Origin: a virus
DNA length: 27,924 nucleotides
Reading direction: 5' to 3' (one strand)
IMG/VR virus record: IMGVR_UViG_3300031951_000962
Span: 1 to 27,924 of that record
Shown here: in pieces, positions 1,540 to 27,122 of the stretch
Layout: each line of letters opens with the position of its first letter
Numbering within the stretch: position 1 is the first letter of the stretch
Program-made: the position numbers and the translations under genes
Notes under the pieces: generated by a model
The model's database searches: none
Told to the model about the DNA's origin: nothing
The model's input: the letters and a program-made list of their open reading frames with translations, nothing else

Positions 1540-1709
1540 AACCTGACACTTACAAGTTGATTCAGATGTGCGTTGAGTCTGGTGTTGAAAAAGGGTTACA
1601 ACGAGCGAAAAAACATAACGATGCGCCGACAGAGGAGCAGATTCATTACGCAATCACTAAGGAAGTGATGCTGGAAATCCGCGAATGGTTTGAGTTTGAA
1701 GAGCCATGA
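1536..1709 (+). CDS. Small acidic hypothetical protein (57 aa)
   Basis: It begins MKPDTYKLIQMCVESGVEKG and ends MLEIREWFEFEEP. It is predicted to be largely helical: an N-terminal helix, a loop with KHNDAPTEEQ, and a second helix. No motif is recognised. ATG 1536 overlaps the preceding TGA, and its TGA (1707-1709) overlaps ATG 1706, which makes the call much more likely than its size alone would. Confidence 0.75.
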   Translation: MKPDTYKLIQMCVESGVEKGLQRAKKHNDAPTEEQIHYAITKEVMLEIREWFEFEEP

Positions 1710-1894
1710 AAAACATATGGGGCGACGACGTTTTTTTGGCGCTGGCTAAGATCCGCGAGCAGGGCTTGTGGGCTGAAGCTGATTTAGTGTCTAAAGAAAT
1801 GCTCGCTCTACAGGCTGAGGTCGTTTACTTACGGCGACGTATTGAAGCGTCTATTCAAGACCGGGACACATTTAAAGCAGAGTTTGATATATGA
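1706..1894 (+). CDS. Small helical hypothetical protein (62 aa)
   Basis: It begins MKNIWGDDVFLALAKIREQG, and from about residue 25 it is a continuous charged helix (KEMLALQAEVVYLRRRIEAS) with leucines or valines at heptad-like spacing, so probably a dimeric coiled coil. No family is recognised. ATGA overlaps the genes on both sides (1706-1709 and 1891-1894). Confidence 0.75.
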   Translation: MKNIWGDDVFLALAKIREQGLWAEADLVSKEMLALQAEVVYLRRRIEASIQDRDTFKAEFDI

Positions 1895-2664
1895 AAATAA
1901 TTAACCCGGCTTGTTTGCTGATTAACAAGGACTACGCAGAGTCTTTTGATCGCGAGGGCATGGAGTTGTTCCACAAGACGATGGTGTCTTTGGCGAGCCA
2001 GTTGAAGATCGGAAATCCGAACACTACGGCAACGATGCACGATGATTTGGTGGTGTGGTTTCGCAATCTTTTCTTTCTTGAAGATAAGAAATTTGCCGAG
2101 GCTTTGCGTCCTTACATGGGCGATCACACTCTGCACGCACGGACATGGCGTATCTACAATTTGTGCTGGGCACTTTCTCAGGCCGCGCATGTTGCCGGTG
2201 ATGTGGTAGACATTGGGTGTTACGAGGCCCGCAGCACACACGTTTTTTGTACATACAATAAAGACTTGCTCAAGTATAAGGCTTTGTATTTGTTTGACTA
2301 CTTTGACGCCCCGGCTGGTGATCATAAAAAGGCGCTACACGGCCCAAAGTTGGAAGAGTTGGTAGCGAAACGCATGTCGGACTTTGAGCCTTTTGTGTGC
2401 CCCGGCAGCGTGACGGATACGATTCCGAAGCATTTACCGGATGAGATTTGCTTTGCCCATATTGACTTGAACAGTGCCGAGGCTGAAGCGCATGTGATGC
2501 CGGAAGTGTACGAGCGCATGTCGAGGGGCGGGATCATTGTGTTTGATGACTACGGGTTTGCGCGGTATCGGAATTCGGCGCTGGCGCATCAGAAGTTTTT
2601 GTCTAAGAAGTTAGAACGTATTTTGGAATTGCCCACTGGGCAGGGGATGATGGTGAAGTTATGA
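1891..2664 (+). CDS. TylF/MycF-like SAM-dependent methyltransferase
   Basis: This is probably a class I SAM-dependent methyltransferase of the macrocin O-methyltransferase (TylF) type, which O-methylates sugar hydroxyls. The SAM-binding glycine-rich motif I is GDVVDIGCYEARS at about residues 103-115 (the acidic end of beta 2 is less clear). The segment CFAHIDLNSAEAEAHVMPE (187-205) followed by RGGIIVFDDYG (212-222) matches the family's metal-binding aspartates (here D192, D219, D220). Length 257 residues is normal. It is the first gene of the glycan cassette and sits two small genes before two glycosyltransferases, so a sugar-capping role is likely (inference). ATGA overlaps occur at both ends. 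Confidence 0.8.
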   Translation: MKIINPACLLINKDYAESFDREGMELFHKTMVSLASQLKIGNPNTTATMHDDLVVWFRNLFFLEDKKFAEALRPYMGDHTLHARTWRIYNLCWALSQAAHVAGDVVDIGCYEARSTHVFCTYNKDLLKYKALYLFDYFDAPAGDHKKALHGPKLEELVAKRMSDFEPFVCPGSVTDTIPKHLPDEICFAHIDLNSAEAEAHVMPEVYERMSRGGIIVFDDYGFARYRNSALAHQKFLSKKLERILELPTGQGMMVKL

Positions 2665-2966
2665 GTGAAGAGTTTGATTTCATTTCGCGACCAGAGAGCA
2701 AGAACGACGAGCACGTTTGGTGCAAGATCGATCAAGACGGCAAGCTGGAAGTGTTTGATTGGGAGTTTGTTGAGAAGACGGCTGTGGAGTACGACATGGC
2801 GGGTGCTGTGACCCAGCGCAGCAATGCTCAGATCATTTGCAAGTTGGCGATGTTGATTCGTCAGCAGGCACTTGAGCAAGCGGCAGCGGCACTGACTAAG
2901 TATCGGGACTTGCCTGCTACGGCTACGGTAATCATGTTGAAAGACCCTTTGGGAGAAGAGTTATGA
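2661..2966 (+). CDS. Hypothetical protein (101 aa)
   Basis: An acidic N-terminal half (MSEEFDFISRPESKNDEHVW) is followed by a helical region rich in Ala and Gln (LIRQQALEQAAAALTKYRDL). No domain, signal peptide or membrane segment is recognised. It lies between the methyltransferase and the first glycosyltransferase and is coupled to both neighbours by ATGA overlaps, so it should be made together with the cassette; whether it acts in it is unknown. Confidence 0.8.
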   Translation: MSEEFDFISRPESKNDEHVWCKIDQDGKLEVFDWEFVEKTAVEYDMAGAVTQRSNAQIICKLAMLIRQQALEQAAAALTKYRDLPATATVIMLKDPLGEEL

Positions 2967-3148
2967 GAGACGACGATCAGAGTTGGCCGATGCCCATAGC
3001 GGACTTAAGCGCAAGGGACTACTTTGCTGCGATGGCGCTACAAGCCATTTTGTCTGGCAACGAGGGTCGGCATGAGAACCGATGGGATTTAGCCAGAGAC
3101 GCTTATAACGTGGCCGATGCCATGCTTGAAGTAAGGGATGAACAATGA
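2963..3148 (+). CDS. Small conserved phage protein with RDYFAAMALQ motif (61 aa)
   Basis: The core LSARDYFAAMALQAILSGNE followed by DLARDAYNVADAMLEVRDE is a pattern I recognise from many phage and prophage small hypothetical proteins, all helical and with no function assigned. It is not a glycosylation gene by sequence; it appears to be a typical phage nano-ORF sitting inside the cassette. ATGA overlaps with neighbours at 2963 and 3145. Confidence 0.85.
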   Translation: MRDDDQSWPMPIADLSARDYFAAMALQAILSGNEGRHENRWDLARDAYNVADAMLEVRDEQ

Positions 3149-3816
3149 GCCGTTTTGTTTTCTTTCACGTTGGATCTGACATCAGTTTCCCGACGAAGAT
3201 GGTGCAGTCGCTGAAGGCTGTGATGCCTGACGCTGAGGTCATTATGTGCACGGACGATGCGACTCCGCAGGTGCCGGGAGTAGATGACTACAAGTACTCG
3301 CAGGGCAACTACGAGCAGATGATGTACTGGCGAACGAGGGCGTTTGCTGAGGCGAGGCTGACCAAACCGGCTGCGTACATTGACACCGACATGTTGTTTG
3401 CGTTGCCGCTAGACCCGGCTGCGATTCTGGCGGAGCGCGAGATTGTGTTCTGTCGGCGGTCGTTTGACCGGGACGCGGGTTTTAACGGACAGCAGCGGGG
3501 TGGGGTATTCAAGAAGTATCACGGCATTCCGCTTGGGACTTTGTACCCGTACTTGGGGTGTTTCACGATCACGAAGTCGTGGCGCGAGTGGCAAAACCTG
3601 ACGTTGCTGATGGGCTTTATGGATAAGCCGTTGCAGTCGTGGTATGGCGATCAGGAGGCCCTAAAGGTGTACTCGCACATGCTGTACCCGGAGCTGGTGG
3701 GCGAAGTTGAAGAGATGGATTATGCGTGCTTGCCCGACAAGGCACCCGAGGGTCATGTACCCCGGATTCTGCACTATAAGGGTGCAGCGCGTAAGGAGGC
3801 ATTTTTAAATGCTTAA
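3145..3816 (+). CDS. GT-A type glycosyltransferase 1
   Basis: A 223-residue protein with the layout of a small GT-A (GT8-like) glycosyltransferase. It has an N-terminal beta strand FVFFHVGSD, a nucleotide-site region with MCTDDATPQ, and a DxD metal/nucleotide-sugar motif in AAYIDTDMLFALPLD (D80, D82). It also has a C-terminal acceptor-side WYGDQEAL, then ILHYKG with H210, the usual second metal ligand position. It should transfer a sugar from an NDP-sugar to an unknown acceptor in the cytoplasm. It overlaps the second glycosyltransferase by 8 bases. The start in ATGA overlap is well supported. Donor and acceptor cannot be read from sequence. Confidence 0.8.
   Translation: MSRFVFFHVGSDISFPTKMVQSLKAVMPDAEVIMCTDDATPQVPGVDDYKYSQGNYEQMMYWRTRAFAEARLTKPAAYIDTDMLFALPLDPAAILAEREIVFCRRSFDRDAGFNGQQRGGVFKKYHGIPLGTLYPYLGCFTITKSWREWQNLTLLMGFMDKPLQSWYGDQEALKVYSHMLYPELVGEVEEMDYACLPDKAPEGHVPRILHYKGAARKEAFLNA
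3793..3799 (+). promoter_or_regulatory. Strong Shine-Dalgarno site for the second glycosyltransferase
   Basis: AAGGAGG at 3793-3799 ends nine bases before ATG 3809. It is the clearest ribosome binding site in the left operon and lies where the 4-base overlap pattern is replaced by an 8-base overlap. It fixes the start at 3809 and suggests independent, strong initiation of this gene. Confidence 0.8.
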
Positions 3817-4480
3817 GGTATTTATTGGCTGGGATCGGCGTGAGGACGGGGCTTATCAAGTAGCCAAGCATTCGATGGAGTTGTATTCGTCAATCCCGCT
3901 CGACATCGTTCCGATAAAGCAGCACGAGTTGCGCGAACAGGGCAGCTACTGGCGTCCGGTTGATTCGTTGGCGAGCACGGAGTTCAGCCTCACGCGGTTT
4001 TTGACTCCATATCTCGCGGGGTATTCCGGCTGGGCCTTGTTTTGCGACTGCGATTTTCTTTTCCGGGGGGACATCGCGACTTTGCTTGACTACGCCGACG
4101 GGGCAAAAGCGTGCTTCGTTGTACCGCACGACTACCGGCCTACCGAAGCGATCAAAATGGATAACAAGGCGCAACATCAATATCCCCGAAAGAACTGGTC
4201 AAGCTTTATGTTCATCAACTGTGAGCATGAACAAGTTAAGCGATTAACGCCAGAGATTGTGAACACTGCCACACCCGCGTATCTTCATAGGTTTGAGTGG
4301 CTAACGGACGATGTGATCGGGCACTTGCCGATTGCGTACAACTATTTGGAGGGGTGGTACAGCCGCAATGACTGCCCGAACCCGATAGCGGTGCACATGA
4401 CTCGCGGGACTCCATTGTTCAAGGACTGGACGCATGTGGAGTACGGCAAGGAATGGATGGCCATGGCGGCGATGGTATGA
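3809..4480 (+). CDS. GT-A type glycosyltransferase 2
   Basis: Also exactly 223 residues. It begins MLKVFIGWDRREDGAYQVAK, where the FIGWD region is the first Rossmann strand. The DxD is in GWALFCDCDFLFRGD (D80, D82), the same residue positions as in the preceding enzyme. KNWSSFMFINCEH (about 128-140) and AVHMTRGTP with H196 complete a GT8-like fold. It probably adds a second sugar in the same pathway. ATG 3809 follows AAGGAGG. The stop overlaps the start of the TPR-glycosyltransferase gene as ATGA at 4477-4480. The equal length and motif position suggest an old tandem duplication with strong divergence. Confidence 0.8.
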   Translation: MLKVFIGWDRREDGAYQVAKHSMELYSSIPLDIVPIKQHELREQGSYWRPVDSLASTEFSLTRFLTPYLAGYSGWALFCDCDFLFRGDIATLLDYADGAKACFVVPHDYRPTEAIKMDNKAQHQYPRKNWSSFMFINCEHEQVKRLTPEIVNTATPAYLHRFEWLTDDVIGHLPIAYNYLEGWYSRNDCPNPIAVHMTRGTPLFKDWTHVEYGKEWMAMAAMV

Positions 4481-5859
4481 GCAAGCACGCTAAAGCCATT
4501 AAGGCGATTGAGACGGCGTTTCAGGCGGGCAAGTATGCCGAAGCCTTGGATCTGACTAACCATGCCATTGCCTTGAATCCGAAGGATCCTGTTGCGTACC
4601 GGGCCAAGGGTCGGTTGCTTCAGATGCAGCGCAAGTTTGAGGAGGCCATCAAGTACTACGAGGCTGCGGAGCGGCGGGGTGCCAAGGACGCGGACGACTT
4701 TGTGAACCGTGGTATCTGCAAGGCTGAGTTGCAGCGGTACGACGATGGGATTGAGGACTTTACGAAAGCGTTGGAGAAGAATCCGAAGTACTTACATGCT
4801 GTGATTCAGCGTGGCGCGGCCCAGTGGGAGATGCGGCGTTGGGACAAGGCAGAGGAGAACTTCCGGCTTGCCAACGAGATTGCGCCCGACGATGCCAATG
4901 CGAACTGGATCTTGGGTTTGTTGGCTTTGCAGCGTAATGACTTCAAGACGGGCTGGCCGTTGTATAACCGCAGGTGGAAGAGCGAGCGGTTCAAGTCGCG
5001 TCCGTTGCAAACTGACAAGCCGGAGTGGGAGAAGGACACGGGGCTACGGTCTGTGCTGGTATGGGGCGAGCAGGGCATTGGCGATCAGATCATTTACGGG
5101 TCTTTGCTGCCAGCGGTTCGCGAGCGTACTGATCATGTCACGGCGATGGTTGACCCCCGGTTGATTTCTATTTTCAGCCGGTCGATGCCAGACATTGTTT
5201 TTCAGTCTCAGATGGACAAGATCCCGAAGGATCGACATGACTCGCACTTGCCATTTGCGTCGATTGGGGGTCATTTCATTCAAGAGGTGGAGGACATACC
5301 CCGTCACGTTAATTCGCCCTTTCTGAAGGCTGACCCTGACCGTGTAGCGCAATTGAGAGTAGAGTTGGGTATTCAGCCGGGGGACTTTGTGGTGGGGCTA
5401 TCGTGGTTAAGCACTGCGATGAAGATTGGCCCGCACAAGAGCATTCCACTGGTCGAGTTGTTACCAATTATCAACGGGCCTAACAGGAAGGTCGTCAATG
5501 TTCAGTACGGCTTCAAGAAGTCTGACACAGACCTCTTCAACGCAGAGCATGGCACCAACGTCCTTACCTCTTCGGTGGACTTATGGAAAGACTTTGAGGG
5601 TCTCGCCGCACTGCTCATGGTCTGCGATGTTGTCGTGGCGGTCAGCAGCACAACGGTGCATTTGGCCGGAGCGCTTGGGCAGCGGGTCTTGCTCATGGAT
5701 GCCAACAAGCTGTGGTACTGGGGAAACAAAATCGGTGACACGAGCGCGTGGTATCCAAGGACGAAGATTTTTCAGAGAGAGAACATGATTTCTCCTTGGA
5801 ATAAAGTGGTTGATTTAGTTAGAAGTGAAGTGGAGTTTATTCAAAATGAAAGAGGGTAA
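4477..5859 (+). CDS. TPR-repeat protein fused to GT-B glycosyltransferase domain
   Basis: The 460-residue product has about four to five TPR units at residues 5-172 (seen in AGKYAEALDLTNHAIALNP, RKFEEAIKYYEAAERRGAK, RYDDGIEDFTKALEKNP, RWDKAEENFRLANEIAPDD). Then comes a GT-B domain like GT9/GT41 proteins: VWGEQGIGDQIIYGSLLPA (about 195-213), VVGLSWLS (306-313) and the nucleotide-sugar site CDVVVAVSSTTVHLAGALG (383-401). The architecture resembles bacterial O-GlcNAc-transferase-like and heptosyltransferase-like proteins; TPRs usually bind a protein acceptor. An in-frame ATG at 4453 exists, but ATG 4477 makes the ATGA overlap and is preferred. This is the last large gene of the glycan cassette. 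Confidence 0.85.
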   Translation: MSKHAKAIKAIETAFQAGKYAEALDLTNHAIALNPKDPVAYRAKGRLLQMQRKFEEAIKYYEAAERRGAKDADDFVNRGICKAELQRYDDGIEDFTKALEKNPKYLHAVIQRGAAQWEMRRWDKAEENFRLANEIAPDDANANWILGLLALQRNDFKTGWPLYNRRWKSERFKSRPLQTDKPEWEKDTGLRSVLVWGEQGIGDQIIYGSLLPAVRERTDHVTAMVDPRLISIFSRSMPDIVFQSQMDKIPKDRHDSHLPFASIGGHFIQEVEDIPRHVNSPFLKADPDRVAQLRVELGIQPGDFVVGLSWLSTAMKIGPHKSIPLVELLPIINGPNRKVVNVQYGFKKSDTDLFNAEHGTNVLTSSVDLWKDFEGLAALLMVCDVVVAVSSTTVHLAGALGQRVLLMDANKLWYWGNKIGDTSAWYPRTKIFQRENMISPWNKVVDLVRSEVEFIQNERG

Positions 5860-6037
5860 AGATGCCGTCCGAGAATACCTTGCGACTATCGGAAGCCGAG
5901 GTGGCAGCGCTGCTAGAGGAGCTAAGAAGCGACGTCCCAAGGAGCACTATAAGCGAATGGCAAAGCTCAGCGCCGCCAAGCGACGAAAGAACAAGCGATC
6001 CCGTGAACCCGAGCCACTACAAGAAGGGCGGGATTGA
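5846..6037 (+). CDS. Small very basic protein with GSRGG motif (63 aa)
   Basis: From ATG 5846 the product starts MKEGKDAVREYLATIGSRGG, then SAARGAKKRRPKEHYKRMAK and a Lys/Arg-rich helix. The (S/K)xGG(S)xxxxA pattern plus Lys/Arg-rich tail is frequent in small phage and plasmid proteins thought to bind nucleic acid; function is unknown. It overlaps the TPR-glycosyltransferase stop by 14 bases and shares 176 bases with the long form of the DUF3310 ORF in another frame. An in-frame ATG at 5825 has no better support. No clear ribosome binding site is visible. Confidence 0.6.
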   Translation: MKEGKDAVREYLATIGSRGGSAARGAKKRRPKEHYKRMAKLSAAKRRKNKRSREPEPLQEGRD

Positions 6038-6209
6038 GTGTATTGATGCCATACGGTCGATGCTGACCGAGGAGGAATGGCGGGGTTTTCTGAAGGGTAC
6101 AGCTATGGCGTATATCTGGAGGCTTGGGCATAAGGATGCCCCCGAGCAGGACGCTAGAAAGACGTTGTGGTACGTCTCATGGCTTGCCAATCAAGATCCG
6201 AGGGGGTAA
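5862..6209 (+). CDS. DUF3310 domain protein
   Basis: Residues 48-112 match DUF3310: DPVNPSHYKKGGIECIDAIR, then FLKGTAMAYIWRLGHKD and ARKTLWYVSWLAN. The family is found in many tailed phages (a T7 gp1.7-like nucleotide kinase relation has been noted) and its role in phages is mostly unclear. Two starts are possible. ATG 5862 follows AGAGGG and lies two bases after the previous stop, adding a 47-residue amphipathic and Ser/Pro-rich leader. GTG 6003 begins MNPSHYKKGG, leaves just the domain and greatly shortens the overlap with the basic protein. This is the last gene before the terminator. Confidence 0.8.
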   Translation: MPSENTLRLSEAEVAALLEELRSDVPRSTISEWQSSAPPSDERTSDPVNPSHYKKGGIECIDAIRSMLTEEEWRGFLKGTAMAYIWRLGHKDAPEQDARKTLWYVSWLANQDPRG

Positions 6210-6254
6210 GATCCCCCTGTGCTATCTCGTGACACTCTCCTGTAAATCAGGTTG

Positions 6255-6293
6255 CCCCGGAGTTGAGCGAAAGTTCCTCCGGGGATTTTTTTT
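6255..6293 (+). terminator. Rho-independent terminator
   Basis: An 8-base perfect stem CCCCGGAG (6255-6262) / CTCCGGGG (6277-6284) with a 14-base loop is followed by A and eight T (6286-6293). It stands 45 bases after the DUF3310 stop and ends the + strand left operon. There is no T-run on the other side, so it should not stop the converging leftward transcript, whose last gene ends at 6295. Confidence 0.92.
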
Positions 6294-6294
6294 G

Positions 6295-8538
6295 TCACTT
6301 TGCCCTGACACGATAAACACGGCGATCCCGTCCGGGGCCATTCGCCTTGATGACTTCTTCCACAATGTCGCCTGCCTCTAGGAGCGTTTGCAGGATCTCG
6401 TTGCGGTCGCGGGCTTTCATGCCTTGGAGCGACTTGGCGAGTTGAGTACTGCTGGCTCCGAGGTCGCCTTGCTTGCGGATGAAGTTCAGGATGCGCTTGT
6501 GCGAGGCTTCGGTTTCGTTCTCTGAGATTTCCCGCACGAGCAGATCTTCGGTGTAGTTGAAGCTCCAGCGGCAAAAGTCGTTAGCCATTTTGAAGACTTC
6601 TAAAGTGACGATGGGGCTAACCGGGTTGCGTGCGATGGCTTCGATCATGGCGACTTTGATAGTCATTTCGGAGAAACGCACCCAGATATGTTCGTCCTTG
6701 CGGGACTGTTGGGTTTGCCATCTCTTGACGACTTCGTACTCTGTGAAAGCTTCCTTATCCCACATGACCGGAATGGGCTCGACTGATGCGTTAGGGATCA
6801 TTACTTGGTTACTCAGGTTCCCTGCATTAGGCGGGACAACTGCGTAGGAGTCTGCGATGTCCTTGACCAGTTCTTCTGGCGGCGGAATGCGGGCCGGTAC
6901 GCAGGAGTCTGGGAAGTCTTCAAAGGGCGGCACAAGCAGGATGCGCGACATCGTGCCGTTATCCACCATATCGTGGTTGAGTGCCGGGATCAGCGTGCGC
7001 GGGGTTGTAGTGCCAAAGAAGTTGAAGTTAGGCTGATTGATGTCGAAGCGCACACGATTGGTTGAATCGGCGTATTCCTGTCCGTGATAGATACCGTTGC
7101 TGCTGGAGTAAATCTCAAGCAGGGTTTTGATGATGTCGCGTTGATGGCTTGCAGCGTTCTTGGCGGTCAGGCTCTGAAGGTACAGGCCCATTTCGTCAAG
7201 GTGGCTGATACGCGAGGGGAAGTCGAACAGGGTGCGTAAGATAGCGACGCCTGAACTGAAGCGATCCCCGCAGATTAATTGATTGAGGTTTGCTGCAATC
7301 ATCAACTCTTTGACGCGCTGCCGGGAGTGGTCTTTACCTGCTCCGGGTTTGGCAACGGCGATTGCGAACAGGTTGCAGCGTGTGCCGAGATCGGCCATGG
7401 CGTACCGCCGCCCAAAGATGGCACCGAACATAACGAGGGCGTTAGCGAGCGCAAAGGTCGGCTGCGGCTGCTGAGCAGTGTTGATGACCCAGCGGGTTAC
7501 CCTGCCTACGAGAGACGGGGTATCGAACCATACATGCGGGAAGTTTTCCTTGGTGCTCTTTTGAGTCTTCTTAGGTTCCTTAAGATTGGTAAGGTCAACG
7601 AGCTTAACCGCCTTGACGGGATTCAGGTCAATATGGGTTGGGGGCACCCAGCCGTTTTGCTGAGCGTAGTAATAGAGGGTTCCTGCGCCGATTTTGCTAG
7701 GCGGCGACTTGCTGTAATGATCCCAGCGCTGACTGGTTTCGAGGCTGTTGTACTTGCCGGAGGCTCGCGACCACTGATCGAATACGTGCAACCCCTTACC
7801 TTCGGTGGCGCAATAGATGGCCATGCCGATACGGTTCCAGTCGTCCCACGAGAGGTCTGGGTTAGGTACATACTTCAGGGCGTCCTCGACCGCTGTCAGA
7901 GTGCCCACGAGCCCATCGTTGGAGGTTTTAAGATCCTTTTCGGCCAGAAGCGTGCTGACCAGTCTCTTACGTCTCAGATTGGGCGGTAAAGCGTTATAAG
8001 CCTCTTCAGCGGCCTCCAGCACCTGCTGACGGGTCACGATTGGCAGGGCGTTTACGGGCGTCTGGTGCGGTGCGTCGAACGGCCATGCGTAAGGCTTGTT
8101 GGTTTCCGGGTGATAGGCGTAGGCAACGAACTGCTGACCGACCCCAAGCACTTCGATAGGGTGCAAGGAGATCTTACTGAAGGGCTCCAGTGTCCGGTAC
8201 AGGTACAGGGCCTTGGGGGATTTGCCGATGCGGATGAGATCGGTCTGGCCGAGTTTGTTTTGGAACACCTCCCCGACTTTGAGGGCAACGCCTTCGTCCA
8301 ATACGTCAATATCGATGGCGACGACTTCCCCTGTCAGGATGCCGATGCCGCAACCGGGCCACTTGGTCCAGATGTCGATATGGGTATTAGCAGCGTTGAT
8401 TTCTGTCCAGCGCGGCAGTTCCCCCCAGACGCCTTCAAAGTAGCGCCCCGGTCGCTTAGTACCCGGCATGATGGGAATGATTCGGTAACCGCCATCAACA
8501 AGTTTGGCGGCATAGTCTTCGATGAAGTTGTCAGACAT
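6295..8538 (-). CDS. Bifunctional prim-pol / DUF3987 primase-helicase
   Basis: A replication protein of 747 residues. The N-terminal prim-pol domain (about 5-190) has GYRIIPIMPGTKRP, GIGILTG and the catalytic acidic pair in AIDIDV (D76, D78). A PriCT-2-like segment follows (about 211-290: LKYVPNPDLSWDDWNRIGMA, FDQWSRASGKY). A DUF3987-like ATPase/helicase domain has Walker A VAKPGAGKDHS (395-405) and Walker B-like ISHLDEMG (444-451). The C terminus is a winged-helix-like segment (about 680-745). The Walker A has Asp after the lysine instead of Ser/Thr. ATG 8538 overlaps the RusA stop by 8 bases; an upstream in-frame start at 8616 lies inside rusA and is rejected. It primes and unwinds DNA, probably at the phage origin. 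Confidence 0.9.
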   Translation of the reverse strand: MSDNFIEDYAAKLVDGGYRIIPIMPGTKRPGRYFEGVWGELPRWTEINAANTHIDIWTKWPGCGIGILTGEVVAIDIDVLDEGVALKVGEVFQNKLGQTDLIRIGKSPKALYLYRTLEPFSKISLHPIEVLGVGQQFVAYAYHPETNKPYAWPFDAPHQTPVNALPIVTRQQVLEAAEEAYNALPPNLRRKRLVSTLLAEKDLKTSNDGLVGTLTAVEDALKYVPNPDLSWDDWNRIGMAIYCATEGKGLHVFDQWSRASGKYNSLETSQRWDHYSKSPPSKIGAGTLYYYAQQNGWVPPTHIDLNPVKAVKLVDLTNLKEPKKTQKSTKENFPHVWFDTPSLVGRVTRWVINTAQQPQPTFALANALVMFGAIFGRRYAMADLGTRCNLFAIAVAKPGAGKDHSRQRVKELMIAANLNQLICGDRFSSGVAILRTLFDFPSRISHLDEMGLYLQSLTAKNAASHQRDIIKTLLEIYSSSNGIYHGQEYADSTNRVRFDINQPNFNFFGTTTPRTLIPALNHDMVDNGTMSRILLVPPFEDFPDSCVPARIPPPEELVKDIADSYAVVPPNAGNLSNQVMIPNASVEPIPVMWDKEAFTEYEVVKRWQTQQSRKDEHIWVRFSEMTIKVAMIEAIARNPVSPIVTLEVFKMANDFCRWSFNYTEDLLVREISENETEASHKRILNFIRKQGDLGASSTQLAKSLQGMKARDRNEILQTLLEAGDIVEEVIKANGPGRDRRVYRVRAK

Positions 8539-8914
8539 TTTCGATTTGAACCTCGACCCGCTCTTCGCCTTCGTCGTACTGCTTGCTAGCAATAATTTGA
8601 GCAACAGCGGCGTCATCTTGCAGAACGATGCCGTTCATGGAGTCCAGTATTACCTTGATGATGTTGTCAAGATCCGGTCGAGAGGTGTGCCAGCCCGTCT
8701 TCTTCTTGCTGTTGAAGTAAGCTGTGATCGTGACCTTAACAGGCCCTTCTAGCATAGCCTTACCAAACATAGCAATCTGGAACAGCGACTTAACTTCCTG
8801 CTCGTACTTGCGAGTCTTGAAAGGCGTGTAAGCGACCATGTTGCCATTCTTGGCACGACCAAAGCGCGGCCTTCCTTTGCTGACCGGCTTGCCAACAATC
8901 ACTGCATCAATCAT
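8531..8914 (-). CDS. rusA: RusA-family Holliday junction resolvase
   Basis: A 127-residue endonuclease resolving Holliday junctions during recombination-dependent replication and packaging. The RusA pattern is clear: an N-terminal strand with KGRPRF (13-18), then SRPDLDNIIKVILDSMNGI (78-96) with catalytic D81, D83 and K87, and QDDAAV with D100/D101 as the third acidic site. The length is normal. It overlaps the regulator stop by 8 bases (8907-8914) and the primase start by 8 bases (8531-8538), so the three genes are one translationally coupled leftward operon. Confidence 0.92.
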   Translation of the reverse strand: MIDAVIVGKPVSKGRPRFGRAKNGNMVAYTPFKTRKYEQEVKSLFQIAMFGKAMLEGPVKVTITAYFNSKKKTGWHTSRPDLDNIIKVILDSMNGIVLQDDAAVAQIIASKQYDEGEERVEVQIENV

Positions 8915-24310: not shown

Positions 24311-25923
24311 GGGTTCTCTCCCAGAATCGTGCCCGTAGCCGGTTCGATGTGAGCAATCGTCTGCCCCATCTGGTAATTGCCGCCAATCACGTTGCTCTCA
24401 AACCTAAAGCGCAACTCGCGACGAATCTCGCGGAAATACACCAACTGCTGCTGCTTGGTCTGGGGAGAGGAGTAAATGGTCTGTGGGTCGCTCGTAACCT
24501 CAGCAGACTTGGCATTGGCACGGCCCGTAACCTGAACCGTCATGTCGCCTGCCTGAACAAAGTCTGGCTCAATCATCTCAACGCGAAGGGCCATGTTTTG
24601 CGGGTTTTCTGAAGCAAGAAGCGACATGTCAGAAGTCTCAAAGTACGACTGCACCGGCCTGATCTGAGTGCCGTTGATCTCATCCACTCCGTACTCGTGC
24701 TGCCACACCACATACCCCTTCGGGTCGTTGATGATTCTGGGGCTACCGTCTTCAGTTACGCGCAAGTCACCAGTATCCGTGATGCGATAAATAGGCTGCG
24801 TCGCCTCAGTGTCAATGACACCAATTACCAGCGGAGAACTAAACACCTGCGCATACTGACCGGCAGATCGCCCGCCATTGGGCAGAATGGTGTCGTACCA
24901 CGTTTCCTCACGCACGTTGTAAATCACAGCATGAGTACATTCAGTAGCGTTGCCACGGGGGTAGCACCACCAGATCTCGCCCCAGCGCGGTACTTTGAAC
25001 GCAAAGACCTTTTGACGCTGAGCATAGTTCAAGTTGTCGTAGAACCAGTTCAGGTTAAGCTGGTTCGGCACTTCGCGTACAACACCGTTGAACATCAAGA
25101 AGCGGTCAACGCCGCACCAGAAGTACAAACCATCGTACTCAATCACGCTCTGCCCAGAGAGAATGCTTGACTGCGAGGTAATGGTGTCAAAGTTGAAGAT
25201 GGACGATCCACCTACATACGTCGCACGAACCAAAGAGTCCAAAGACCAAAAGAGACCAGACGGAGCATTGCCAGCACCGGCTCGCAGTGGAAGACCCTTG
25301 ACGATCTTCTGGCTGGTTACACGGGCAGCGCCAGAGCCAGATCCGCTCCAGTCATCCGTATATCCCGCACGACTCCACTGCACAAAACCATCGGTGCCAT
25401 ACGCAAACACATACGGCGCAAGCGCCACAATTCCGCCAGACACCGTGACCGCAGGAACCAAGTCCAAAGCGCCCGTGCCGTTGTCGTAACCGCGATACAA
25501 AGCGCCATTGGCATCAGACGAAATGTCTTCCAGATCCGACGATACATGCGCCAGAATTTCGTTCTGATTGGTTGTGGTGTTATACGCCACATCAAAATGC
25601 CACATGGCATCAATGTCGCTAACGTAATACGGGTTCGTCCGATTGGTAACAATACTGCTGTTGCCGTTCTGGCTTAACCGAAAACGAAACACCCCGTCCG
25701 ATGTACCAATATGGACATAGGTATAGCCGTTGTGGTTGTGAATATGCATGCCACGCGCAATACCATCTAGCCGATCTTGCAGTGCACGATAACCGCCCAT
25801 CTTTCTCGGCAGGCCACGCTGAAACCGGCACCACTGCCCGTCAACGTAATAGTTGCCTTCAAACTTCGTACCGTCCCGCTTGATACCGGGTTGCGGACGC
25901 AGAACAACTGGCTGCAAAGGCAT
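24307..25923 (-). CDS. P22 gp10-like tail hub/stabilisation protein
   Basis: A 538-residue virion protein. It begins MPLQPVVLRPQPGIKRDGTK, and a beta-propeller-like middle has repeats of short blades (GYTYVHIGTSDGVFRFRL, LYFWCGVDRFLMFNGVVREV). NLNWFYDNLNYAQRQKVFAF and RWGEIWWCYPRG are also characteristic. The C-terminal third (about 430-538) is beta-rich, with ALRVEMIEPDFVQAGDMTVQ. The overall pattern recalls packaged-DNA stabilisation and tail-hub proteins of podoviruses such as P22 gp10, but the identity is by pattern only. It overlaps the tail fibre stop by one base (TAATG). Confidence 0.65.
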   Translation of the reverse strand: MPLQPVVLRPQPGIKRDGTKFEGNYYVDGQWCRFQRGLPRKMGGYRALQDRLDGIARGMHIHNHNGYTYVHIGTSDGVFRFRLSQNGNSSIVTNRTNPYYVSDIDAMWHFDVAYNTTTNQNEILAHVSSDLEDISSDANGALYRGYDNGTGALDLVPAVTVSGGIVALAPYVFAYGTDGFVQWSRAGYTDDWSGSGSGAARVTSQKIVKGLPLRAGAGNAPSGLFWSLDSLVRATYVGGSSIFNFDTITSQSSILSGQSVIEYDGLYFWCGVDRFLMFNGVVREVPNQLNLNWFYDNLNYAQRQKVFAFKVPRWGEIWWCYPRGNATECTHAVIYNVREETWYDTILPNGGRSAGQYAQVFSSPLVIGVIDTEATQPIYRITDTGDLRVTEDGSPRIINDPKGYVVWQHEYGVDEINGTQIRPVQSYFETSDMSLLASENPQNMALRVEMIEPDFVQAGDMTVQVTGRANAKSAEVTSDPQTIYSSPQTKQQQLVYFREIRRELRFRFESNVIGGNYQMGQTIAHIEPATGTILGENP

Positions 25924-27122
25924 TAGTACGTGCCACCCTTGATGGGGTCAAGATCCAAGGCAATCTGGGCCGCTGAAGTACTCGCAGCAATAAACACCGC
26001 GTTACCTACCGTCGTAGCTCCAAGATTGGTTCTAGCACCCGATGCCGTCGTAGCACCCGTACCACCTTGCGCCACAGAAAGCGGGATACCAATCGTGGAC
26101 GTATCAGCATCCACCACATCCGTACCGTCGCAGTACAAGATGGCCCGCGCACCCTGCGATACCGTCACACCCGGCGATGCCTGACCCGAAGTGCGAACCC
26201 CCAAGGTGTACGAACCCGTGGTTTGGTTGCTCACCCAGTACTGCTGGGCAGTCGTCGGAACAATGATGTCCCGGTTACCAGTCAGCAAACCCGTGAAGAT
26301 ATAAGCCGTCTTGTTCAGTTCGGCAATCGACAGCGTGTAGTTACCCGACCCAGCAACGTCAATCTGCAACACGCTGAAGGCATAAATGGCAGACTGGCCA
26401 AAACCAATCGTCCAGAACTGAACACCATCCGTCACGATGATGCAGGAGTCCCCCGGCGACAACACAAGCGTCGAAGCGCCGTTAATCGACTCTGAACTAT
26501 TGGGGTCAATCGTCAAGTCGCCCGTGCCGTTGTTACGAACCTGCACAAACCAGTCATTGCCCAAGGTCGGAGCAGCGGTCACGCTCAAGGTTCCTGAACC
26601 ACCCGTCCAAATCAGCGCCTTGGCACGGTCGCTCACACCCGTCGTGTAGTTGGTGTTAAAGGTCGAAACCGGAGCAGACTGGTTCAGCGTCGTAGCAATC
26701 GCCTTCAGCCCAAGACCAGCCAGAGCCGACGCATTCGCCGCAGATGCCGCTGCCCCGTACTGGAACGACCGCCAAGTACCCGACACCGTGCTGTTGTCAG
26801 TCAGGTAAATCTGAAACGTGCTGCCCGAAGTCGGAGCGCAAATCTGCACCCCAGTGTTCGTCTTAACCGTAAAGGTGTTTGACCCCACGTTGTTAAAGAG
26901 CACCGTCTGACCCGTGGATGCCTCAGTCGCATCCGGCATCGTAATGACCAGACTCGTTGTCGTAGCATTGATGTCCATGATGGACGCCACAACGTCGTTC
27001 GTCGGAGCAGTCTCTAAAGGCCAATCCACAGTCTGACTAATGGTCAGAGATACATAGCGATACGAGACATCACTTGGATAAAGAGTCGTGCCGCCGAAAG
27101 TTTGTGTAAAGGATGCGGTCAT
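25923..27122 (-). CDS. Tail fibre/tailspike protein
   Basis: A 399-residue Thr/Ser/Gly-rich beta protein beginning MTASFTQTFGGTTLYPSDVS. The C terminus has SVAQGGTGATTASGARTNLG, the typical collar motif of phage tail fibres (QGGTGATT...R.NLG). The N-terminal part likely anchors the fibre to the tail, and the middle is repeated beta strands with TLSVTAAPTLGNDWFVQVRN. It recognises the host surface. Located directly before the gp10-like gene and 2 bases after the adaptor gene. Length is short for a complete receptor-binding fibre, so another receptor-binding protein may exist elsewhere. Confidence 0.8.
   Translation of the reverse strand: MTASFTQTFGGTTLYPSDVSYRYVSLTISQTVDWPLETAPTNDVVASIMDINATTTSLVITMPDATEASTGQTVLFNNVGSNTFTVKTNTGVQICAPTSGSTFQIYLTDNSTVSGTWRSFQYGAAASAANASALAGLGLKAIATTLNQSAPVSTFNTNYTTGVSDRAKALIWTGGSGTLSVTAAPTLGNDWFVQVRNNGTGDLTIDPNSSESINGASTLVLSPGDSCIIVTDGVQFWTIGFGQSAIYAFSVLQIDVAGSGNYTLSIAELNKTAYIFTGLLTGNRDIIVPTTAQQYWVSNQTTGSYTLGVRTSGQASPGVTVSQGARAILYCDGTDVVDADTSTIGIPLSVAQGGTGATTASGARTNLGATTVGNAVFIAASTSAAQIALDLDPIKGGTY

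Follow-up and report, generated by a model that had tools for sequence, protein, structure and literature searches.

What does a phage do with a tightly packed set of sugar-related enzymes, and which molecule would receive the sugars? The question is raised by the 27,924-nucleotide virus record IMGVR_UViG_3300031951_000962 of IMG/VR, which was analysed at its full length (positions 1 to 27,924, hereafter the window). Its + strand carries a compact run of genes, i.e. orf62, a putative methyltransferase (MT), the small open reading frames (ORFs) s101 and s61, two predicted glycosyltransferases (GT1 and GT2), a protein joining tetratricopeptide repeats (TPRs) to a glycosyltransferase domain (TPR-GT), and a DUF3310 gene. 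The four sugar-related enzymes that a sequence-only reading of this DNA had placed here were all present as ORFs, namely a TylF/MycF-type MT, GT1, GT2 and a TPR plus GT-B protein. We tentatively favor the view that the cassette is a cytoplasmic protein O-glycosylation module acquired from bacteria, which works independently of an oligosaccharyltransferase (OTase), uses an FlmG-like primer and has a virion protein as its most likely acceptor.

Relatives were collected by scans with each cassette protein, with up to 80 loci per protein, and linkage was counted in 54 distinct viral contigs that extended at least 4 kb to each side of the TPR-GT gene. In these s101 was present without exception (54/54), GT2 was found in 53 and GT1 in 52, while MT occurred in five and thus is an accessory part of the cassette. 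Three types of arrangement were seen. In type 1, that of the window, s101, GT1, GT2 and TPR-GT lie beside DUF3310 and PrimPol genes and MT is optional. In type 2, with about 70 loci, TPR-GT and GT1 are fused in a single ORF that is followed by GT2 and s101; the fusion was read through in two loci (L009:3627-5510 and L022:4852-6771) and yields a three-domain protein of TPR, GT-B and GT-A. Such a fusion indicates joint action of TPR-GT and GT1. Type 2 phages have different replication genes, and their tail stabilization protein was distant or not detected. Type 3 consists of TPR-GT and s101 only. TPR-GT was found in every PrimPol relative whose contig extends far enough past DUF3310. This phage group thus maintains the cassette as a core function. 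Median pairwise dN/dS was 0.087 for TPR-GT, 0.117 for GT1, 0.163 for GT2 and 0.158 for MT (three pairs only); the median for s101 was 0.31. Because homologues occur in many independent contigs and dN/dS is low, the four enzyme genes are not chance ORFs. Judged by these sequence comparisons the cassette exists and purifying selection acts on it.

TPR-GT showed Pfam TPR matches and a weak match to Glyco_transf_9 (GT9) below the cut-off; a match to Pfam GT41 (PF13844) was not obtained. The AlphaFold2 (AF2) model had a pLDDT of 92.5, and Foldseek returned SPINDLY and OGT as the nearest solved structures, which bears out the OGT-like architecture proposed from the sequence alone. The TPR plus GT-B layout is shared with OGT and SPINDLY (GT41), but the phage GT domain is weakly GT9-like and lacks their Pfam signature. 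The start codon of TPR-GT is most likely the ATG at 4477, not that at 4453, judged from the lengths of homologues. BFVD contains similar whole-length models from Synechococcus phage S-SRM01 and an uncultured Caudovirales phage, thus the TPR plus GT-B architecture is present in other phages, where it has no assigned function. A 1177-aa protein of Rhizobium phage RHph_X2_30 (L239:9451-12984) contains a TPR-GT-like stretch, its gene being convergent with tail genes.

Structure prediction and search, which the sequence-only reading had recommended for all four proteins, gave confident models with glycosyltransferase matches for GT1 and TPR-GT. The GT1 model (pLDDT 94.7) resembles GT6/GT8 enzymes, with GT6 ABO/GTB, BoGT6a and glycogenin as top Foldseek matches (TMq 0.55-0.64). 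GT2 belongs to the PHROG family phrog_28018 (E 9e-55), and its phage homologues are annotated as nucleotide-diphospho-sugar transferases. Neither GT1 nor GT2 had a Pfam match, and their profiles gave no meaningful match against PDB sequences. Loss of the DxD or GT-B sites in homologues had been named as an observation that would speak against the glycan cassette. In the alignments, the DTD motif of GT1 (D80-T-D82), the DCD motif of GT2 (D80-C-D82) and, in TPR-GT, the GT-B residues H320, K321 and H395 were all invariant.

MT scored above the curated Pfam cut-offs for Methyltransf_24 and TylF (PF05711). A PDB search with the single sequence found no match; the family profile, however, matched MycF, NovP and CalS11 (E 1e-13 to 2e-6). 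MT could be aligned to MycF, and its residues D192, D219 and D220 were invariant and are presumably metal-binding. By sequence MT is a putative TylF/MycF-type sugar O-methyltransferase. With MycF, NovP and TylF it shares the catalytic-domain profile match and the conserved acidic residues, but those enzymes act on natural-product sugars, and the substrate of MT would be the phage glycan.

The sequence-only reading had the four enzymes right but missed the two small ORFs, s101 and s61, between MT and GT1. Of these, s101 is the only constant companion of TPR-GT in phages; its place in the cluster varies among the three arrangement types, its presence does not. It has a conserved core, W..I...G.L....W...E..A..[FY]D...[CS]KL..L[VI]R. 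No Pfam family was found for s101, nor a convincing PHROG family, as a 25-member search gave a single stray weak match, and s101 was not found in the bacterial islands examined. The simplest guess for s101 is an adaptor role in presenting or selecting the acceptor. The other ORF, s61, was detected in only part of the relatives and probably is a passenger. It is short, and its homology lies with the C-terminal part of phrog_2201 proteins.

Where do these enzymes come from? A scan of a genome collection with GT1 gave 11 loci in eleven bacterial genomes. In Polynucleobacter hallstattensis flhB and the flg/fli cluster are next to an island that holds several TPR-GTs, a GT2, a GT1 and methyltransferases; the flg/fli cluster itself contains a further TPR-GT, and one TPR-GT of the island has a GT41 match (PF13844). 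A tyrosine-type integrase gene of the phage_integrase family lies within the island (L245:13017-14000, about 403-404 kb), and judging from this internal gene the flagellar glycosylation island of Polynucleobacter may be mobile. In the Betaproteobacteria genome TMED82 a giant flagellin gene is flanked by GT1 and TPR-GT, and two more giant flagellins, FliD and another flagellin-family gene adjoin this locus; a GT2 is located about 48 kb away on the same contig. The giant flagellins of this metagenome-assembled genome (MAG) measure 1145-1893 aa (L248-L249, contig 147-169 kb). One TPR-GT of a Caulobacterales MAG lies beside two flagellins and another directly before a GT2, and TPR-GT and GT2 are adjacent in a proteobacterial MAG. 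The phage sequences group together in the GT1 tree, and the nearest bacterial rows are those of Polynucleobacter and TMED82 (34-row group, 97/91), the Polynucleobacter/TMED82 pair itself reaching only 84/55. A single clade (99/99), placed among bacterial TPR-GTs, unites the phage TPR-GTs of types 1-3 in the GT-domain tree. Both trees were midpoint-rooted and their bacterial branches are long. The two islands thus hold the closest bacterial relatives of phage GT1, and both have GT1 and TPR-GT homologues, the Polynucleobacter island GT2 as well. They differ from the phage cassette by the lack of s101, by many more genes and by adjoining flagellar genes.

A known enzyme of this layout is FlmG of Caulobacter crescentus, in which a TPR domain that binds flagellin is joined to a GT-B domain; FlmG glycosylates flagellin in the cytoplasm, independently of an OTase (PMC7591256). 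FlmG is described as sufficient for the modification of flagellin with pseudaminic acid (PMC7591256). The phage TPR-GT, which we liken to FlmG by architecture, has the same N-terminal TPR and C-terminal GT-B parts in one soluble protein. Unlike FlmG, the phage TPR-GT comes with GT1, GT2 and s101. No flagellin was recognised in the window. Together with the flagellin and flagellar linkage of the closest bacterial GT1 relatives, the FlmG precedent (PMC7591256) agrees with the protein acceptor that had been suggested from the TPR-GT architecture. From its architecture and the flagellar linkage of its relatives, TPR-GT most likely primes a protein acceptor.

The same linkage raises the question whether that protein belongs to the host. 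If so, the module would act on flagellin, pilin or another surface or intracellular target and alter the infected cell, e.g. by blocking superinfection or a receptor. The location of the window-type cassette among small genes and replication genes fits such a role, too. On the other hand, an assembled filament would change little within one infection cycle, and neither an integrase nor a lysogeny gene was recognised in the window. Furthermore, homologues occur in virion gene regions. In podovirus MW202512 the major capsid gene and a tail gene are separated by genes for TPR-GT, an FkbM methyltransferase and GT2, and in CcrColossus GT2 is downstream of a tail gene. When the phage clusters around GT2 in S-SCSM2R, Mosig, DLP_6 and CcrColossus were searched with the GT1, TPR-GT and s101 profiles, GT2 was the only cassette gene found. 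We consider a host acceptor a serious rival, though an unlikely one.

The gene positions in MW202512 and CcrColossus are one reason to favor a virion acceptor; the other is the precedent of mycobacteriophages. As cited in two papers, glycans are reported on virion proteins of Che8 and other mycobacteriophages along with phage-encoded glycosyltransferases (PMC11256854, PMC12619734). The likeness to our cassette consists in the phage-encoded glycosyltransferases; mycobacteriophages are an unrelated phage group, and no cassette of TPR-GT with s101 is described in the texts consulted. A literature search for phage TPR-GT cassettes found none. Calling the system undescribed, as the sequence-only reading did with caution, is therefore fair for the cassette as far as searched, but virion glycosylation by phages as such has already been reported for Che8 (as cited in PMC11256854 and PMC12619734). 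A phage virion protein is the likely acceptor.

Which virion protein this would be was sought in amino acid composition. The sequence-only reading had pointed to the tail fibre because of its serine and threonine content, and the tail-fibre-like protein of the window indeed has 25.8% Ser+Thr compared to 8-14% in the other window proteins measured. However, Caulobacter phage RW, which gave no match to the cassette, has a homologous fibre with 26.2%. Thus we discarded Ser/Thr content as a guide to the acceptor, since it does not discriminate.

Could the enzymes instead serve the envelope, building or altering lipopolysaccharide or capsule sugars in the manner of serotype conversion? Sugar O-methylation is common in surface polysaccharides, the GT-B domain has a weak GT9 similarity, and GT1 resembles sugar-chain enzymes of GT6/GT8. 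In addition, four of the eleven bacterial genomes with GT1, most of them MAGs, show no flagellin, and the GT1 family is for this reason not flagellin-specific. Against this, the TPR domain and the GT1 fusion point to a protein acceptor, and neither a GtrA/GtrB flippase, a prenyl-linked transferase nor a polytopic Gtr-type glycosyltransferase was seen beside the cassette. The enzymes themselves look soluble: no membrane-helix-like stretch was present in MT, s101, GT1 or GT2, and the one such stretch in the cassette enzymes lies within the folded GT-B domain of TPR-GT. Serotype conversion, one of the roles offered by the sequence-only reading, is weakened by these data, and we regard an envelope function as improbable.

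Another of those roles, hypermodification of DNA, fared worse. Phage glycosyltransferases often act on DNA (PMC12619734), and in this view they would decorate hydroxymethylated bases of the phage DNA; the cassette adjoins replication genes. But the thymidylate-synthase-family hydroxymethylase (PF00303) that would supply such bases was absent from nine contigs, several of them incomplete, and there was no Pfam match to the T4 DNA glucosyltransferases. The location of homologues in bacterial flagellar islands and the presence of a TPR domain likewise speak against DNA as the target, which we consider highly improbable.

Several observations weigh against the reading that we prefer, a FlmG-like module acting on a virion protein. 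The cassette of the window sits among small, probably early genes and replication genes and not among virion genes. By tblastn, none of the cassette genes had a match in the virion relatives RW, GB2A, KcrB and RLK, implying that glycosylation is not needed for this tail type. The whole-protein TM-score of TPR-GT with OGT is low (about 0.35), in part as a result of domain geometry. The flagellin-adjacent TPR-GT of the Caulobacterales MAG is not the nearest to the phage TPR-GT in the GT-domain tree. The bacterial GT1 genomes that show no flagellin count here as well, and a comparison of the GT1 and GT2 profiles detected no homology between them. The claim of a virion system is plausible, and the cassette is best filed as phage protein glycosylation with bacterial, flagellin-type kinship.

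The scheme that we infer, in catalysis, order of action, role of s101 and acceptor, is as follows. The module would have been captured from bacteria. The TPR domain of TPR-GT would grip the protein acceptor, most likely a phage virion protein, and s101 as a phage-specific constant partner would present or select it. The GT-B domain would then add the first sugar to Ser/Thr, as FlmG does on Caulobacter flagellin, and GT1 and GT2 would lengthen it to a short glycan with nucleotide sugars of the host. In this and some other phages the MycF-like MT may cap the glycan with an O-methyl group. The donors are assigned to the host because no sugar-nucleotide gene was recognised in the window, in line with the sequence-only reading.

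Most junctions of the gene run show stop/start overlaps of the ATGA type, and the DUF3310 gene starts 2 nt past the end of TPR-GT. The proposal of an operon closed by a terminator holds for the packed run, but the terminator does not follow TPR-GT at 5859; it is predicted after DUF3310, where a strong terminator-like hairpin was found (minimum free energy z-score of -4.3 for 6200-6300), although a simple consensus terminator scan did not pick it up. The DUF3310 protein probably has no part in the glycan function. PrimPol, RusA and HTH genes are convergent to the run. The PrimPol at 6295-8616, with PriCT_2 and DUF3987 domains, is a highly conserved neighbor of the cassette in type 1 phages. Virion genes occupy the - strand of the right half of the window, and the tail 'stabilization' protein encoded there shares 51% identity with its counterpart in Caulobacter phages RW, GB2A, KcrB and RLK.

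Table 1. Features of the cassette region and the candidate acceptor in the window.
Feature	Position	Strand	Basis or remark
orf62	1706-1894	+	First gene of the compact run
MT, putative TylF/MycF-type sugar O-methyltransferase, accessory cassette member	1891-2664	+	Pfam, family profile, invariant Asp residues
s101, small acidic protein, constant partner of phage TPR-GT genes	2661-2966	+	Linkage in 54/54 contigs, conserved core
s61, small phage protein akin to PHROG 2201, probable passenger	2963-3148	+	phrog_2201, E 3e-11
GT1, predicted GT-A glycosyltransferase with DTD motif	3145-3816	+	AF2 model, Foldseek, invariant motif
GT2, putative GT-A glycosyltransferase with DCD motif	3809-4480	+	phrog_28018, annotated phage homologues, invariant motif
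TPR-GT, N-terminal TPRs and C-terminal GT-B-like glycosyltransferase domain	4477-5859	+	Pfam, AF2, Foldseek
DUF3310 protein, last gene of the transcription unit	5862-6209	+	Pfam DUF3310, E 2.5e-15
Predicted intrinsic terminator of the cassette transcript	about 6255-6293	+	GC-rich hairpin followed by U8
Ser/Thr-rich tail-fibre-like protein, candidate acceptor only	25923-27122	-	Ser+Thr 25.8%

Protein glycosylation by phages is thinly documented. The cassette would represent a conserved module for it that a large group of uncultured phages maintains. Enzymes akin to those of bacterial flagellar islands are a plausible source; in one form two of the enzymes are fused, and the partner protein had no name before. 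We speculate, as a possibility of low probability, that phages domesticated a flagellin-type machine and retargeted it via s101 as an acceptor-selecting adaptor for the TPR domain. If so, uncultured phages would widely possess a compact system that O-glycosylates proteins, extends the glycan and optionally adds a methyl cap. The small soluble gene set lends itself to tests of acceptor choice by cytoplasmic O-glycosyltransferases, and the cassette is relevant to how phage particles may escape recognition or tune their adsorption.

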